Below, piece by piece: positions 24,720 through 59,122 of a stretch of DNA of 64,000 bases. The translations under genes and the position numbers were made by a program. Every line of letters starts with the position of its first letter. Position 1 is the first letter of the stretch. A model generated the notes under the pieces. That model saw only the letters and a list, made by a program, of their open reading frames with translations, made no database searches and had not been told where the DNA came from. The stretch comes from Druceiella hillmani (lineage: Eukaryota; Arthropoda; Insecta; Lepidoptera; Hepialidae), in contig JAYKKI010000013.1 in NCBI GenBank assembly GCA_039881145.1, positions 38,211,501 through 38,275,500 of the forward strand, given 5' to 3'.

Positions 24720-25667
24720 AATGATTACACATGACAAATTCGAGTGCAATTTCTTAAATTTTTGAAGAAAACCATTAAGTCATGGTAAATGCTGCTATGA
24801 TATAAAAGTGGTGTGTATCGAGGTCGCATTATACTACATTTTCTCCGTCAATTTTCATTCATAATATCAATATTATGAATGAAAATTGACGGAGAAAATG
24901 TAGTATAATGCGACCTCGATACACACCACTTTTATATCATAACAGCATGTACCATGACTTAAAATATAAATGAATGTATTTTGTCGCAGACTGTAGACCT
25001 TTTTAAGATCTGCAATTCATCTGCACATAATATTAATGTGTCTGTAATAATTTTATCATAACTTTTTCTCCGATTGCCCTAATATTATTACCTAAATATT
25101 AATAATTATACAATACATATTCATCTCGCGCAGGTTATGGCAATTTGGAAAATATAAACTATAATATTGTGAAAGCTGTAAGTTAATAGGATTTGTAATA
25201 TTTTCCTGAATCACTAAAAAATGAACAAATTTTACTGGGCATAATATTAACAGATAGTACTTAGCTCAGTTTTTCGTAGTTATTACAAGCAAAAAATTAT
25301 TACACATGACAAATTCGAGTGAAATTTTTTAAATGTTTGAAGAAAACCATTTTAGATGATATTATGAATGAAAATTGACTGTAAAAATGTAGTGTAATGC
25401 GATTTCGACACACTGTGTCTGTAATAATTTTAGCATATCTTTTTCGCCGCTTGCCCTAATATTATTAACTAAAACTTAATAGTTATAAAATACATTTTCA
25501 TCTCACGCAGGTTATGGCAGTTTGGAAAATATAAACTATAATATTGTGAAAGCTGTAAGTTAAAAGGATTTATAATGTTGGCCTGAATCACTAAAAAATA
25601 AACTTTACTGGGTATAATATTAATAGATAGGATTTAGTTCAGTTTTTGTAGAGTTATTATAAAGAAA
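24711..25667. repeat. Tandem duplication, copies A (24711-25285) and B (25286-25667)
   Basis: The two adjacent segments are collinear: TTACACATGACAAATTCGAG, TTTGAAGAAAACCATT, ATATTATGAATGAAAATTGA, GTGTCTGTAATAATTTTA, TTGCCCTAATATTATTA, GGTTATGGCA(A/G)TTTGG, AAATATAAACTATAATATTG, CCTGAATCACTAAAAAAT. Copy A is longer because it contains a large palindrome plus ~60 bp that are absent from copy B. Confidence 0.93.
24777..24960. repeat. 184-bp near-perfect palindrome, 91-bp arms, 2-nt centre
   Basis: The left arm (24777-24867) starts AAGTCATGGTAAATGCTG. The right arm (24870-24960) ends CAGCATGTACCATGACTT. The centre is CA. I see only two mismatches between the arms, both near the outer end. Copy B of the surrounding duplication holds only the right-arm orientation (from about 25358), so the palindrome is derived and not ancestral. 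Confidence 0.95.
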
Positions 25668-32734: not shown

Positions 32735-35265
32735 AAATAGAAGTTATAACAACATTTTTAGTGCTATACCTAAAAGAGAAGAGTTTTATTAAACACAGTT
32801 ATTTTTACAAACTATATTTTTATGACTGTGAATAGCGTTTGTATTACCGTTGGAAATGTTATAAGTATCTCGTATTTTGAATTCCGTTAAAAAGTCCGAG
32901 ATATTTAAAGCTCAATTTTAACTTTAATGCCTAAAAGAAAAGTGCAATTAATTAAGCACAATTATTTTCAGCAACCGTTTTTCTGTGAATAACGTTTCTA
33001 TTACCATCGGAAATGTTGTTAGTTCCTTATATTCTGAAATGTGTTGCAAAGCAGCATATGGTTATAACAACATTTTTATTATTATACCTAAAAGAGAAGA
33101 GTTTTATTAATCACAGTTATTTATACAAACTATATTTTTATGACTTTCAATAGCGTTTGTATTACCGTTGGAAATATTATAAGTATCTCGTATTCTGAAT
33201 CCCGTTAAAAAGTCCGAGATGTTTAAAGCTCAATTTTAACTTTAATGCCTAAAAGAAAAGTGCAATTAATTAAGCACAATTATTTTTACAAACCGTTTTT
33301 CTGTGAGTAGCGTTTCTATTACCGTCGGAAATGTTGTTACTTCCACATATTCTGAAATGTGTTGCAAAGCAGCTTATAGTTATAACAACATTTTTAGTGC
33401 TATACCTAAAAGGAAAGAGTTTTATTATTCCCAGTTATTTTTACAAACTATATTTTTATGACTGTGAATAGCGTTTGTATTACCGTTGGAAATGTTATAA
33501 ATATCTCGTATTCTGAATTCCGTTAAAAAGTCCCAGATACTTAAAGCTCAATTTTTACTTTAATGCCTAAAAGAAAAGTGCAATTAATTAAACACAATTA
33601 TTTTTACAAACCATTTTTCTGTGAATAACGTTTCTATTACCGTCGGAAATGTTAGTTCCTCATATTCTGAAATGTGTTGCAAAGCAGCATATGGTTATAA
33701 CAACATTTTTAGTATTATACCTAAAAGAGAAGAGTTTTATTAATCAGAGTTATTTTTACAAACTATATTTTTATGACTGTGAATAGCGTTTGTATTACCG
33801 TTGGAAATGTTATAAATATCTCGTATTCTGAATTCCGTTAAAAAGTCCGAGATTCTTAAAGCTCAATTTTAACTTTAATGCCTAGAAGAAAAGTGCAATT
33901 AATTAAGCACAATTATTTTTACAAACCGTTTTTCTGTGAGTAGCGTTTCTATTAGAGTCGGAAATGTTATTTCCTCATATTCTGAAATGTGCTGCAAATC
34001 AGCGTATAGTTATAACAACATTTTTAGTGTTAAACTTAAAAGGGAAGAGTTTTATTATTCACAGTTATTTTTACAAACTATATTTTTATGACCGTGAATA
34101 ACGTTTGTATTACCGTTGGAAATGTTATAAGTATCTCATATTCTGAATTCCGTTACGAAGTCCCAGATACTTAAAGCTAAATTTTTAATTTAATTCCTAA
34201 AAGATAAGTGCAATTAATTAAGCACAATTATTTTTACAAACTGTGTTTCTGTGAATAGCGTTTTTATTACCCCTGGAAAATATGTTAGTTCCTCATATTC
34301 TGAAATGTGTTGCAAAGCAGCACATACATATAACAACATTTTTAGTATTATACCTAAAAGAGAAGAGTTTTATAAAACAAAATTATTTTTAAAACTATGT
34401 ATATGTAAGTGTGAATAGCGTTTGTATATACAACACAATTTTTGCTTTTACACCTAAATTAGAAAAATTTTATTATATACAATTATTTTTACAAGCTGTG
34501 TTTGTATAATAGCGAAAACTGCTATTAATTCCGTTGGAATGATTATTAGTTCTTCGTATTCTAAAATGCGTTACAAATCCGCACATAGTTACAACACATT
34601 TACTACGTTTTTACCTAAACGAGAAGTATTTTATTAAGCACAATTATTTTTACAAACTGAATGTGTAACTGTTAATATCATTTGTATTATAGTTGGAATA
34701 TATTATGAGTTACTCGTATTCTGAAACGCATCACACTATTTAGTTTTTTAACTAAATGAGTTTTATTAGGCATAATTATTTTACACAAGCTGTGTTTGCA
34801 TAACTGCAAATAACTTTCGTTTTACCGTTGGAAATATTATCAGTTCCTTATATTCTAAAATGCGTTACAAAGTCGCAGATAGTTATAACATAATATTTAT
34901 TTTCATACCTAAAAGAAAAGAGTTTTATTAAACACAATTATTGTTATAAAATTATTTTATATAACTGTGAATAACGTTTGTATTAACGTTGGAAATATAA
35001 TTACTACCTCCTATTCTAAATCAATTACAAGTTCAAATGTAAAAGTATTAAAAATTTATACCTAAATTATAAAAAATTTATTATGTACAATTGTTTTTAC
35101 AAACTGTGTTTACATAGCTGTAAATAGCGTTTGTATTATAATAAGTATAAACTGTGTTAATATAACTGTGTATAGCGTTTATGAATACCGTTGGGAGCAT
35201 TATTAGTTCCTCGTATTCCTAAATGCGTTGCAAAAGTCACAGATGGTTTAAAAATAATTTTCAAC
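32735..35265. repeat. ~160-bp satellite organised as A/B dimers (~318 bp)
   Basis: A monomers carry CCTAAAAGAGAAGAGTTTTA (about 32767, 33088, 33404, 33720, 34034, 34351). B monomers carry CCTAAAAGAAAAGTGCAATT (about 32930, 33247, 33566, 33880, 34194). Both share TTATTTTTACAAAC, GTGAATA(G/A)CGTTT and TATTACCGT(T/C)GGAAATGTT, which shows common origin. A and B differ consistently, for example AAGTCCGAGAT in A and TGTGTTGCAAAGCAGC in B. Five regular dimers are followed, from about 34380, by more diverged monomers of irregular length up to about 35265. All are in direct orientation. Confidence 0.94.
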
Positions 35266-38790: not shown

Positions 38791-38927
38791 TATTAGATTC
38801 AAGATGACCCGCAATATATTCCCCGGCCTTCAATTCTTCAGTGGTGACCTGGAAACATTTAAATGCTTCCATTTTTAGTATTTAATTAGACTTTTTAAAC
38901 GATTAAATTTTTGTTAACATGCATTAA

Positions 38928-39218
38928 CAAATGAAACTACGTGATGTAGTATTATTTCTACTTTCTTTAATTTCTTTACCACGACCTAGGTTTGGTTGTA
39001 TTACAACATCTCCAGATGAGCTATTAGCAAAGATCTTCAGGTGGGCTATTAGCAAATATATCTTTGCTAATAGCCCACCTGAAGATGTTGTAATACAACC
39101 AAACCTAGGTCGTGGTAAAGAACTTAAAGAAAGTAGAAATAATACTACATCACGTAGTTTTATTTAATTGTGAATAATAAATTTCTACAAAATTAACGCC
39201 AAATATATTCAACAATCA
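38928..39218 (+). mobile_element. Palindromic mobile element, copy 1
   Basis: Inverted arms of about 105 bp run from ATGAAACTACGTGATGTAGT (from 38931) to ACTACATCACGTAGTTTTAT, meeting near 39055-39065. The left arm has an extra ~23-bp duplication near its inner end (TATTAGCAAA twice). A one-sided tail follows the right arm (GAATAATAAATTTCTAC ... CCAAATATATTCAA). The element is flanked by the 9-bp direct repeat ATGCATTAA (38919-38927 and 39219-39227), a plausible target-site duplication. Copy 2 lies at 58708-58983 in the opposite orientation. The 78-codon ATG frame is a by-product of stop-free arms. Confidence 0.88.
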
Positions 39219-39229
39219 ATGCATTAATA

Positions 39230-44752: not shown

Positions 44753-45270
44753 CACCCGCGTATGATGTATGTTCCCCAATATTTTAAATTTAGAGGTACC
44801 CGCGATATGATCTAAGGTCCCTGATGATGTTTACTTCTAATATTGTAATTATCAAATATTTGGAGGCACCTGCTATATGATGTACAGTCCCTGATATTGT
44901 GTACTTCTAATATTGTAATTATGATATATTTAGAGGTACCTGCGATACGATGTAAGGTCCCTAATTTTTTATACTCCTGATGTTGTAATTATAATATCTT
45001 TAGAGGAACCCGCGGTATGACGTAAAATCCCTAATATTGTATACTTCTATTTTTGTAATTATCATGTATTTATAGGTACCCGCGGTATGATGTAAGGTCG
45101 TTGATGTTGTATACTTCTAATATTGTAATTATCATATATTTGCAGGTATCCGCGATATGATATAAGGTCCGTAATGTTGTATGCTTCTAATATTGTAATT
45201 ATCATATATCTAAAAGTACCCGCGGTATAATGCAAGGTCCCTGATGTTGCATACTTCTAATATTGGAATT

Positions 45271-45334
<64 letters not shown>

Positions 45335-57604: not shown

Positions 57605-58705
57605 AGCAAAAAGGATCATGATCTATTATATGTTTGCTGAGCAGAATTTACAAAGTGACCGAGAATATTGTTACACTGAATAAACATGTAGCATGAACGA
57701 TTGACTTTCGGTGAATGTTGACGTGAAAATTACATTATATATAAATATATATATATATAGATACAAATTTTTTTTACATACGTAATGTGGGAACTTCACG
57801 TAGATAATTGGAATACTCCTGTTTCATGAATTCTGGTTAAGTCAAACAGCGATCAAAGCAAAACGTATAGTATGCACAGCAATGGATAAAGTTGAGGTAT
57901 TCTCCAATGATACCACCAAACATTGGTTTCATGGGGTCAGAAAAGGAAATTTTGATTCTTCGATATTCCTTATCTAGTGCAAAATAGATAGCGCATTTAT
58001 TAACTGCCGGCATTACATTTTAAGAAGAAAAATTGTTGAACTCCAAAAATAATACACTCCATTTATATTAAAATAATTATATATTTTATTTTTTCCTCAT
58101 GTAACATGCAAAATTCGAAACATTTGAATTCGAATTGCCGCACTTATAAACTAGTGGAGTATATCTTTGATTCCGATAACGATTTCCATTAAAATTTTAA
58201 TAAATTTCGTTTAAAATGCCTTAAATTTTATATTCCATGTATTTTACTGTAACGAAAAAACGTATTTACATGATCGATCGATGATTTGATTTGAGGTATT
58301 TGGGGATAAACTTACTATCCGAGGTCCTACTTCGTTATACTAATTTTTTATGTTTGTAATAAAATTTGGACAGAACATTTAAAATACATATGGTTTTTTA
58401 TTTTTTGGATCAATTGATTAATTTGCTAAGGTTCTTAATAATACAAGGAAATGAACGCACACATAAAACCTTTTTTGACTTTCGAAAGCTAGAAAAGTTT
58501 ATTTAAAAAAAAAGAGTTAGTTAAGTAAAATATTATAGATATAATAAAATTTGAAAAAAAATTAATTCTTAAATATAAAATAAATAAATTTTCATTAATA
58601 ATTATAGATGAAATTATTCAACATAAATGATTAATTGAGGAATATGCTATTAATTTTCGTAAAGAAATTTGATTTAATCCACCAATCACATTTTTATATA
58701 TGTAT
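57605..58705. other. Non-coding stretch
   Basis: A short AT run lies near 57739-57760. No gene is recognised. Confidence 0.45.
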
Positions 58706-58707
58706 AA

Positions 58708-58983
58708 TTTTGAATATATTTGGCATTAATTTTGTAGAAATTCATTATTCACAATTAAATGAAACTACGTGATGTAGTATTATTTCTACTATCTTTAATT
58801 TCTTTACCACGACCTAGGTTTCGTTGTATTACAACATCTTCAGGTGGGATATTAGCAAAGATTGATTGTATCTTTGCTAATATCCCACCTGAAGATGTTG
58901 TAATACAACGAAACCTAGGTCGTGGTAAAGAAATTAAAGATAGTAGAAATAATACTACATCACGTAGTTTCATTTAATTGTGG
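58708..58983 (-). mobile_element. Palindromic mobile element, copy 2
   Basis: Perfect 113-bp arms (58750-58862 and 58870-58982) with the 7-nt centre TGATTGT. The outer end of each arm is CACAATTAAATGAAACTACG or its complement. A one-sided tail lies left of the palindrome (TTGAATATATTTGGCATTAA ... TTCATTATT). It is the reverse complement of the right-hand tail of copy 1, so the element is inverted here. The flanking direct repeat ATATATGTATAA (58696-58707 and 58984-58995) is a candidate 12-bp target-site duplication, though A+T richness weakens it. Both strands encode nearly the same 72-codon ATG frame (MKLRDVVLFLLSLISLPRPR...) purely because of the symmetry. Confidence 0.92.
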
Positions 58984-59122
58984 ATATATGTATAAGTTTG
59001 GCTCGCGCTTCAAGGATTCCGTATCTCGTTTGAAATTAATTTGTTATGTAAGTCATCAGTAATATGAGCTCTACAGCTCAGTAAATGATTAAAGGATTCA
59101 TATTTGATTATAGTATACATAC

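Follow-up and report, generated by a model that had tools for sequence, protein, structure and literature searches.

How two arms of a palindrome can change between copies of an element and still match each other is the question raised by a stretch of 64,000 nucleotides, here called the window, from the lepidopteran Druceiella hillmani (Hepialidae; GenBank assembly GCA_039881145.1, contig JAYKKI010000013.1, positions 38,211,501 to 38,275,500 of the forward strand). The window carries two copies of a palindromic element, and its first-pass annotation had noted that paired sites in the two arms differ together between the copies. It offered two explanations, that the arms are homogenised or regenerated at each transposition by foldback copying, or that selection maintains an RNA hairpin.

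Anatomy of the two palindromes

Both copies are near-perfect palindromes, located at 38929-39172 (copy 1) and 58750-58982 (copy 2), and they lie in opposite orientation in the window. A tail of about 40 nt is common to both and is found on one side only of each palindrome. The arm adjoining the tail is designated the P arm, and the other, which is inverted and distal from the tail, the D arm. The features of the two copies are as follows (window coordinates, strand in brackets).

38919-38927 (+), copy 1 target-site duplication, left (ATGCATTAA), 9 bp, exact
38929-39034 (+), copy 1 D arm, inverted and distal from the tail
39035-39059 (+), copy 1 tip or loop, 25 nt, largely repeating inner D-arm sequence
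39060-39172 (+), copy 1 P arm, corresponding to the pLTR of a Penelope-like element (PLE), from the presumed mRNA start to just before the ORF
39173-39218 (+), copy 1 one-sided tail, matching the start of the PLE ORF
39219-39227 (+), copy 1 target-site duplication, right (ATGCATTAA)
58696-58712 (+), copy 2 target-site duplication, left, 17 bp, one mismatch to the right one
58713-58749 (-), copy 2 one-sided tail, the start of the PLE ORF, reversed
58750-58862 (-), copy 2 P arm
58863-58869 (-), copy 2 tip or loop, 7 nt
58870-58982 (-), copy 2 D arm, 113 nt matching the P arm throughout; an additional base follows at 58983
58984-59000 (+), copy 2 target-site duplication, right

The arms of copy 2 (58750-58862 and 58870-58982) match over 113 nt without any mismatch around the 7-nt loop, as the first-pass annotation had stated, and those of copy 1 (38929-39034 and 39060-39172) enclose the 25-nt loop with nine mismatches, the outermost bases included. 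The three paired differences that it had reported are real. At arm positions 41 (A/T), 72 (C/G) and 99 (A/C) the bases are identical within each copy and different between copies, and no site in this pair groups by side. The loop of copy 1 has C at arm position 99, matching both its arms. The predicted RNA fold of copy 2 has an energy of -192.6 kcal/mol (z -35), equalled by none of 200 shuffles. Target-site duplications occur at both copies, 17 bp with one mismatch at copy 2 and 9 bp exact at copy 1; among random flank pairs in the window, repeats as good are found by chance in about 0.7% and about 2% of cases, respectively.

An open reading frame running through the palindrome (78 and 72 aa) was attributed to chance, as it has no Pfam match and the 41 loop lengths examined fall in all three frames (16, 10 and 15). 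Matches to miRNA families were below the gathering scores, and any long hairpin would match in this way.

Genomic copies and their Penelope-like source

Copies were sought in the genome to which the window belongs (2.586 Gb, 181 contigs). First-look lists held 1243 candidate places with copy 2 as query and 3515 with copy 1, of which 40 were scored for each. The 39 and 39 copies fetched, together with the two of the window, constitute a set of 80 which is not random, being composed of the best matches to copy 2 or copy 1 with the loop included (c2-like and c1-like copies); the c2-like copies plus copy 1 give a set of 41. A further sample was anchored on the tail, the exact 29-nt sequence of which occurs 32,656 times in the genome (16,305 + 16,351; reversed control, 0). 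It comprises the first 90 of 100 listed tail places, all from a stretch of about 4 Mb on contig C1, and sampling by an exact tail favours younger copies. Two places with a common 3' flank (L109 and L110), a local duplication, were both retained. By the threshold used here a D arm is present at 74 of the 90 tails, and a subset of 51 copies was defined by a fixed D start and a target duplication scoring at least 9.

Direct repeats scoring at least 8 were found at the element ends in 38 of the 41 copies, and the target duplications measure 11-13 bp in 27 of them. In the 51 tail-sampled copies the best direct repeat is 9 to 19 bp long, with a mode of 12 (17 copies), and the 41 copies are similar. 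An assembly artefact is unlikely, since copies at many other places share the same build and 38 of 41 have direct repeats at their ends.

Sequence extending beyond the palindrome disclosed the nature of the source. In nine of the 90 tail copies the D arm is absent and a longer upstream sequence with a TATA-like motif is held in common. In L089, L109, L111 and L151, too, the D arm is missing, and only a truncated P arm or the tail remains. A locus between two of the nine, L138 and L139, named L179, encodes the C-terminal part of a protein matching reverse transcriptase (RT) and GIY-YIG, both below the Pfam cut-offs in this fragment, and P-arm sequence flanks the ORF on both sides in L179 and L139. 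A search with the L179 protein yielded 9004 candidate places, the best 105 of which were scored; the motif GIYKLKC...VYIGQTGR is visible in the protein.

At locus L183 the TATA-like ATATAAATG at position 473 begins 31 nt upstream of the tip motif AATCTTTGCTAA at 504, which is followed by the P arm and then by an open frame of 810 aa. The tip sequence AATCTTTGC is at the expected site of RNA start. The first methionine of the ORF begins MNFYKINAKYIQY, and the tail encodes MNFYKINAKYIQY, i.e. codons 1-13, a peptide that had been read from the tail before this locus was fetched. The protein matches RVT_1 (PF00078, E 9.9e-15, 55.2 bits against a cut-off of 29.6) and, after the RT at residues 703-738, GIY-YIG (PF01541, E 4.6e-4, 20.9 bits, just under the cut-off of 22.6). 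A D arm was absent from the 500 nt fetched 5' of the L183 P arm (best local score 19 versus 217 for the P arm); L183 sits in tandem behind another copy, and the judgement is limited to these 500 nt. From this layout and the RVT_1 match, the source of the palindromic stubs is identified, on sequence grounds, as a PLE, with the P arm as its predicted 5' UTR and the tail as the first 13 codons of its predicted ORF. The earlier statement that the element has no recognised transposase therefore holds for the stub itself and not for the source PLE, which has a reverse transcriptase and a putative GIY-YIG-like endonuclease.

The P arm (e.g. 39060-39172) also includes a hammerhead-like core, CCACCTGANGA...GAAACC..GGTCGTGG, with a GTC site. 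Of 49 full P arms, 14 retain the core intact. No Rfam hammerhead was found at E<=1 in 10 loci, and the fold of lowest energy differs from a hammerhead.

Foldback elements and palindromic MITEs are short, AT-rich, noncoding and made of inverted repeats, like the stubs, but they are DNA transposons with symmetric ends and a duplication of fixed length. A palindromic MITE or foldback DNA transposon was rejected on account of the variable target duplication (9 to 19 bp) and the one-sided tail, and Helitron and SINE readings were set aside on account of the target duplications and of the identity of the tail with the ORF start. No relatives were found in viral contigs or in prokaryote contigs, a result of little weight since neither is an insect collection.

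Arms, tips and ends across copies

The relationship between arms was established by comparing distances within and between copies. In the set of 41, the D arm and the P arm of one copy are on average 2.73 differences apart versus 3.52 to the arms of other copies, and none of 10,000 permutations gave a value as low. Between copies the D-D (3.51) and P-P (3.50) distances show no grouping by side and equal the D-P distance, hence D arms and P arms do not form lineages of their own. When positions 41 and 103 were removed the effect was smaller but persisted (2.59 versus 2.84; 2 of 10,000 permutations). The same pairing by copy recurs in the tail sample at greater divergence than in the set of 41, with an own-arm distance of 0.0578 versus 0.0699 (3 of 5000 permutations) for the 40 of the 51 copies having enough shared columns. 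Only 3 of 24 cherries in a FastTree tree unite the two arms of one copy, because the arms are short and most changes are private. Thus the arms group by copy and not by side.

Asymmetric changes amount to 1.36% per arm site versus 1.42% in the unpaired tail (41 copies), and to 1.66% versus 1.42% in the set of 80. The arms acquire mismatches at the rate of the tail, and it follows that they were equal at birth and have had no maintenance since; as the arm rate equals or exceeds that of the tail, pairing is not conserved beyond the neutral expectation in the manner of a hairpin-RNA gene. Among symmetric changes transversions predominate, at 8 of 8 site-alleles in the set of 41 and 13 of 16 in the set of 80, and these are not steps through G-U pairs. 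ADAR editing was discarded, as A>G changes represent 14 of 118 asymmetric changes on the sense strand, with no excess.

A few sites depart from symmetry in one direction. In the set of 80, C>T at position 85 occurs on D in nine copies of several subfamily backgrounds and on P in none, A at position 41 is found on D alone in seven copies and on P alone in none, and G>T at position 110 is on P alone in five. In the tail sample the change at position 85 is not one-sided, with two cases on D and two on P. Mixed pairs at position 49 are balanced, with five copies changed on D alone and five on P alone. These mixed pairs would be explained by the use of two different sister RNAs in a single event, but the one-sidedness at 85, 41 and 110 would not. 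Many c2-like copies (L009-L047) have an extra C before CACAATT at the D start, which is predicted by no P arm and is possibly untemplated or derived from another RNA form.

The tips are distinct in 73 of the 80 copies, including copies with at most one other mismatch. Together with the pairing of arms by copy, this supports the proposal of the first-pass annotation that the arms are remade at each insertion. Nine of the 22 loops that reach 8 nt share at least 8 bases with the arms, compared with a mean of 0.8 and a maximum of 4 for shuffled sequences (500 trials); for matches of at least 6 bases there is no excess over chance (12 of 22 loops versus a shuffled mean of 9.7). Those c1-like loops that repeat inner-arm sequence across position 99 carry the base of their arms there, except L055 and L081. 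Conservation within the loop is greater towards P than towards D (orientation permutations: one-sided, 5 of 5000; two-sided, 14 of 5000). Joints in the 51 tail-sampled copies comprise inserted bases in 35, an overlap in 13 and a flush junction in 3.

The outer start of the D arm clusters to within four bases of a single point immediately 5' of the PLE start codon in 61 of the 74 copies with a D arm, and 51 of these 61 have a target duplication scoring at least 9. Alignments reach more than 6 bases into the tail side in 15 of the 74 copies; by eye, real tail is present only in L157 and L160, which are tailed at both outer ends, the D side reaching 38 and 35 bases into the tail, respectively.

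In the 51 copies both arms are full in 17, only D is full in 13, only P is full in 9 and both are short in 12; in this last class D is longer than P in six copies, shorter in one and equal in five. The arms are unequal in 29 of the 51, with no arm piece in the joint in 24 of these 29. D is longer than P in 19 (15 with a clean joint), and P is longer than D in 10 (9 clean), the outer end of D still being fixed. Pieces of the P arm are contained in the joint of 4 of the 19 copies with the longer D arm, and a piece of the D arm in 1 of the 10 with the longer P arm; these five may be later rearrangements. No association between D and P lengths was found in the 51 copies (Fisher p 0.40; Spearman 0.15, p 0.31), nor in the 46 left on omission of the five with arm pieces in the joint (Fisher p 0.14), although failure to reject independence is no proof of it. 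At least one inner end falls at 110-118, the presumed mRNA start, in 38 of the 51 copies, and random later deletions are not expected to end there.

Head-to-head arrangement extends to the coding copies. Among the best 105 of the 9004 places matching the L179 protein, 28 neighbouring pairs of PLE ORFs are less than 8 kb apart, of which 23 are head-to-head, five are tandem with a spacing of about 3.1 kb and none is tail-to-tail. Bit scores are identical in 11 of the 23 head-to-head pairs versus 5.8% of random pairs, and the open frames are equal within 3 residues in 8 of the 23 and not in the other 15. As the ORF pairs are mainly head-to-head, this pairing is here a property of PLE insertion and not of the stubs only. 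Clusters of head-to-head and tandem PLE copies with a spacing of about 3.1 kb are located at G000 C10:25892925-25899048 and C117:5167144-5174673.

Origin of the second arm

We consider it probable that the palindromes arise when the 5' end of the PLE mRNA undergoes dual-strand target-primed reverse transcription and the two cDNAs are then joined. The PLE enzyme would act on the 5' end of its mRNA, so that each palindrome would be a short insertion. A staggered cut of the target would provide two primers, perhaps both served by a single protein dimer. One strand would prime reverse transcription inside the start of the ORF, at what becomes the end of the tail, and the other just upstream of the start codon, at what becomes the outer end of the D arm. 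Both cDNAs would then reach the RNA 5' end or terminate before it, and their ends would be joined with filler or through microhomology. If the two arms are reverse transcripts of one mRNA, or of two sister mRNAs, equality at birth, a new tip, a one-sided tail and a target duplication would all follow. Indeed, one template copied twice suffices for matched changes in the two arms, without hairpin selection or gene conversion. The tails on both outer ends of L157 and L160 are as expected if both strands started at the downstream site.

Self-priming, in which one cDNA or antisense RNA would fold back at its tip and copy itself into a second arm, would also account for the pairing of arms by copy, for new tips and for arm-derived filler in the loops; such self-priming, on an antisense template, has been proposed for PLE inverted repeats (PMC3846280), and 17 both-full and 5 both-short copies of the 51 are symmetric or nearly so. 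However, this route predicts a fixed tip, inner ends that coincide and a ragged outer end; instead, the arms are unequal in 29 of 51 copies, and the outer start of D is the fixed point in 61 of 74 copies, also where P is longer than D. Where D is the longer arm (19 of 51, 15 clean) it holds sequence missing from the P cDNA and is therefore not obtainable by self-priming. On these counts the foldback copying of the first-pass annotation is not supported as a general route and is an unlikely origin of the palindromes, although snapback or palindromic microhomology may sometimes act as well (5 of the 12 both-short copies are symmetric). A hairpin RNA containing both arms, as in a palindromic SINE moved in trans, might serve as the template, with jumps of the RT near the tip giving new loops and shortened arms. 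Fixed outer ends and the copies with a short P arm or the tail only (L089, L109, L111 and L151) would fit such a template, and the one-sided changes at positions 85 and 41 look inherited. It nevertheless predicts D and P lineages, against the equal D-D, P-P and D-P distances between copies, and inherited loops, against 73 distinct tips in 80; moreover, the source PLE has no D arm in the 500 nt fetched 5' of its P arm, and PLE ORFs are paired head-to-head likewise. Taken together, a hairpin template appears improbable.

Least credible is a post-insertion upkeep of arm equality, whether through gene conversion or replicative template switching in the DNA palindrome, or through selection on the RNA hairpin. 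Such upkeep would yield matching changes in both arms of one copy. Yet the arms change at the rate of the tail in both sets, copies with at most one mismatch already differ in their tips, and the symmetric changes are mostly transversions. The first and the last of these observations also speak against the hairpin selection suggested in the first-pass annotation. The dual-strand reading, with both transcripts limited by the RNA 5' end, accommodates unequal arms with fixed outer ends.

PLEs have been described as a third class of retroelements in eukaryotes (PMC11167929). The origin of their inverted terminal repeats has been an open question; a proposal of self-priming was made in 2013 (PMC3846280). 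Penelope-type PLEs of Adineta vaga, and also of fruit flies and fish, resemble those described here in their head-to-head inverted pLTRs, partial tandems and RT, and they combine the RT with GIY-YIG, for which the match here is just under the cut-off; in A. vaga an optional 31-bp tail extends the pLTR into the ORF start, like the tail here, and the target duplications, also present here, are 8-10 bp in the described cases (PMC3846280). Self-priming on an antisense template was favoured in that report, which considered experiments to be needed. Unlike in A. vaga, most sampled inserts here consist only of two inverted parts of the 5' UTR and the tail, so that arm lengths and tips can be counted. 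Tail copies number in the tens of thousands, and in most of those sampled the starts, the stops and the joint can all be read, which makes the insertion models separable by counting; the counts favour two-strand priming over self-priming.

These counts agree with biochemical data on PAc, a PLE of the green anole. Its protein cuts both strands in vitro and extends both, and reverse transcription begins at two neighbouring internal sites on the RNA, the interval between which equals the genomic tail (PMC11167929, 2024). The AT-rich targets are shared with the present case, as would be the cutting and extension of both strands and the two internal starts bracketing the tail, and the in vitro result and the genomic joints support each other. 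The differences are that the commonest PAc start is 111-118 bp into the ORF, while the two starts deduced here lie near codon 13 and immediately 5' of the start codon, and that the PAc evidence is in vitro only; in the available text its authors draw no link between two-strand extension and inverted pLTRs (PMC11167929). In human L1 twin priming, as here, the second DNA end primes internally on the RNA, giving a 5' inversion with microhomology at the joint; in L1 this inversion is one of three structural classes, whereas in the stubs the second start is constant and the inverted arm is present in most sampled copies (PMC2912911). Among the papers listed by literature searches, no title or opening of an abstract joins PLE inverted pLTRs with two-strand extension or describes palindromic Penelope stubs or a similar element.

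It is slightly favoured, in our judgement, that dual-strand priming is the normal PLE route, with two subunits each cutting one strand and starting a cDNA at one of two fixed internal RNA sites, both cDNAs extended to the cap and then joined, and with head-to-head pLTRs or whole copies as the primary product instead of an accident. With the 5' end of the mRNA as template, palindromic stubs would then be the most frequent outcome; lacking the promoter, which lies upstream of the cap and escapes copying, they would drive no new copies.

Last, the window contains other repeated structures. Tandem arrays are present at 32742-34427 (318-bp unit, 5.3 times) and 44788-45279 (70-bp unit, 7 times). A second, unrelated palindrome is located at 24771-24966, with 93-nt arms 2 nt apart that are 98% complementary and TTAA on both sides, and is presumably a palindromic piggyBac-type MITE.
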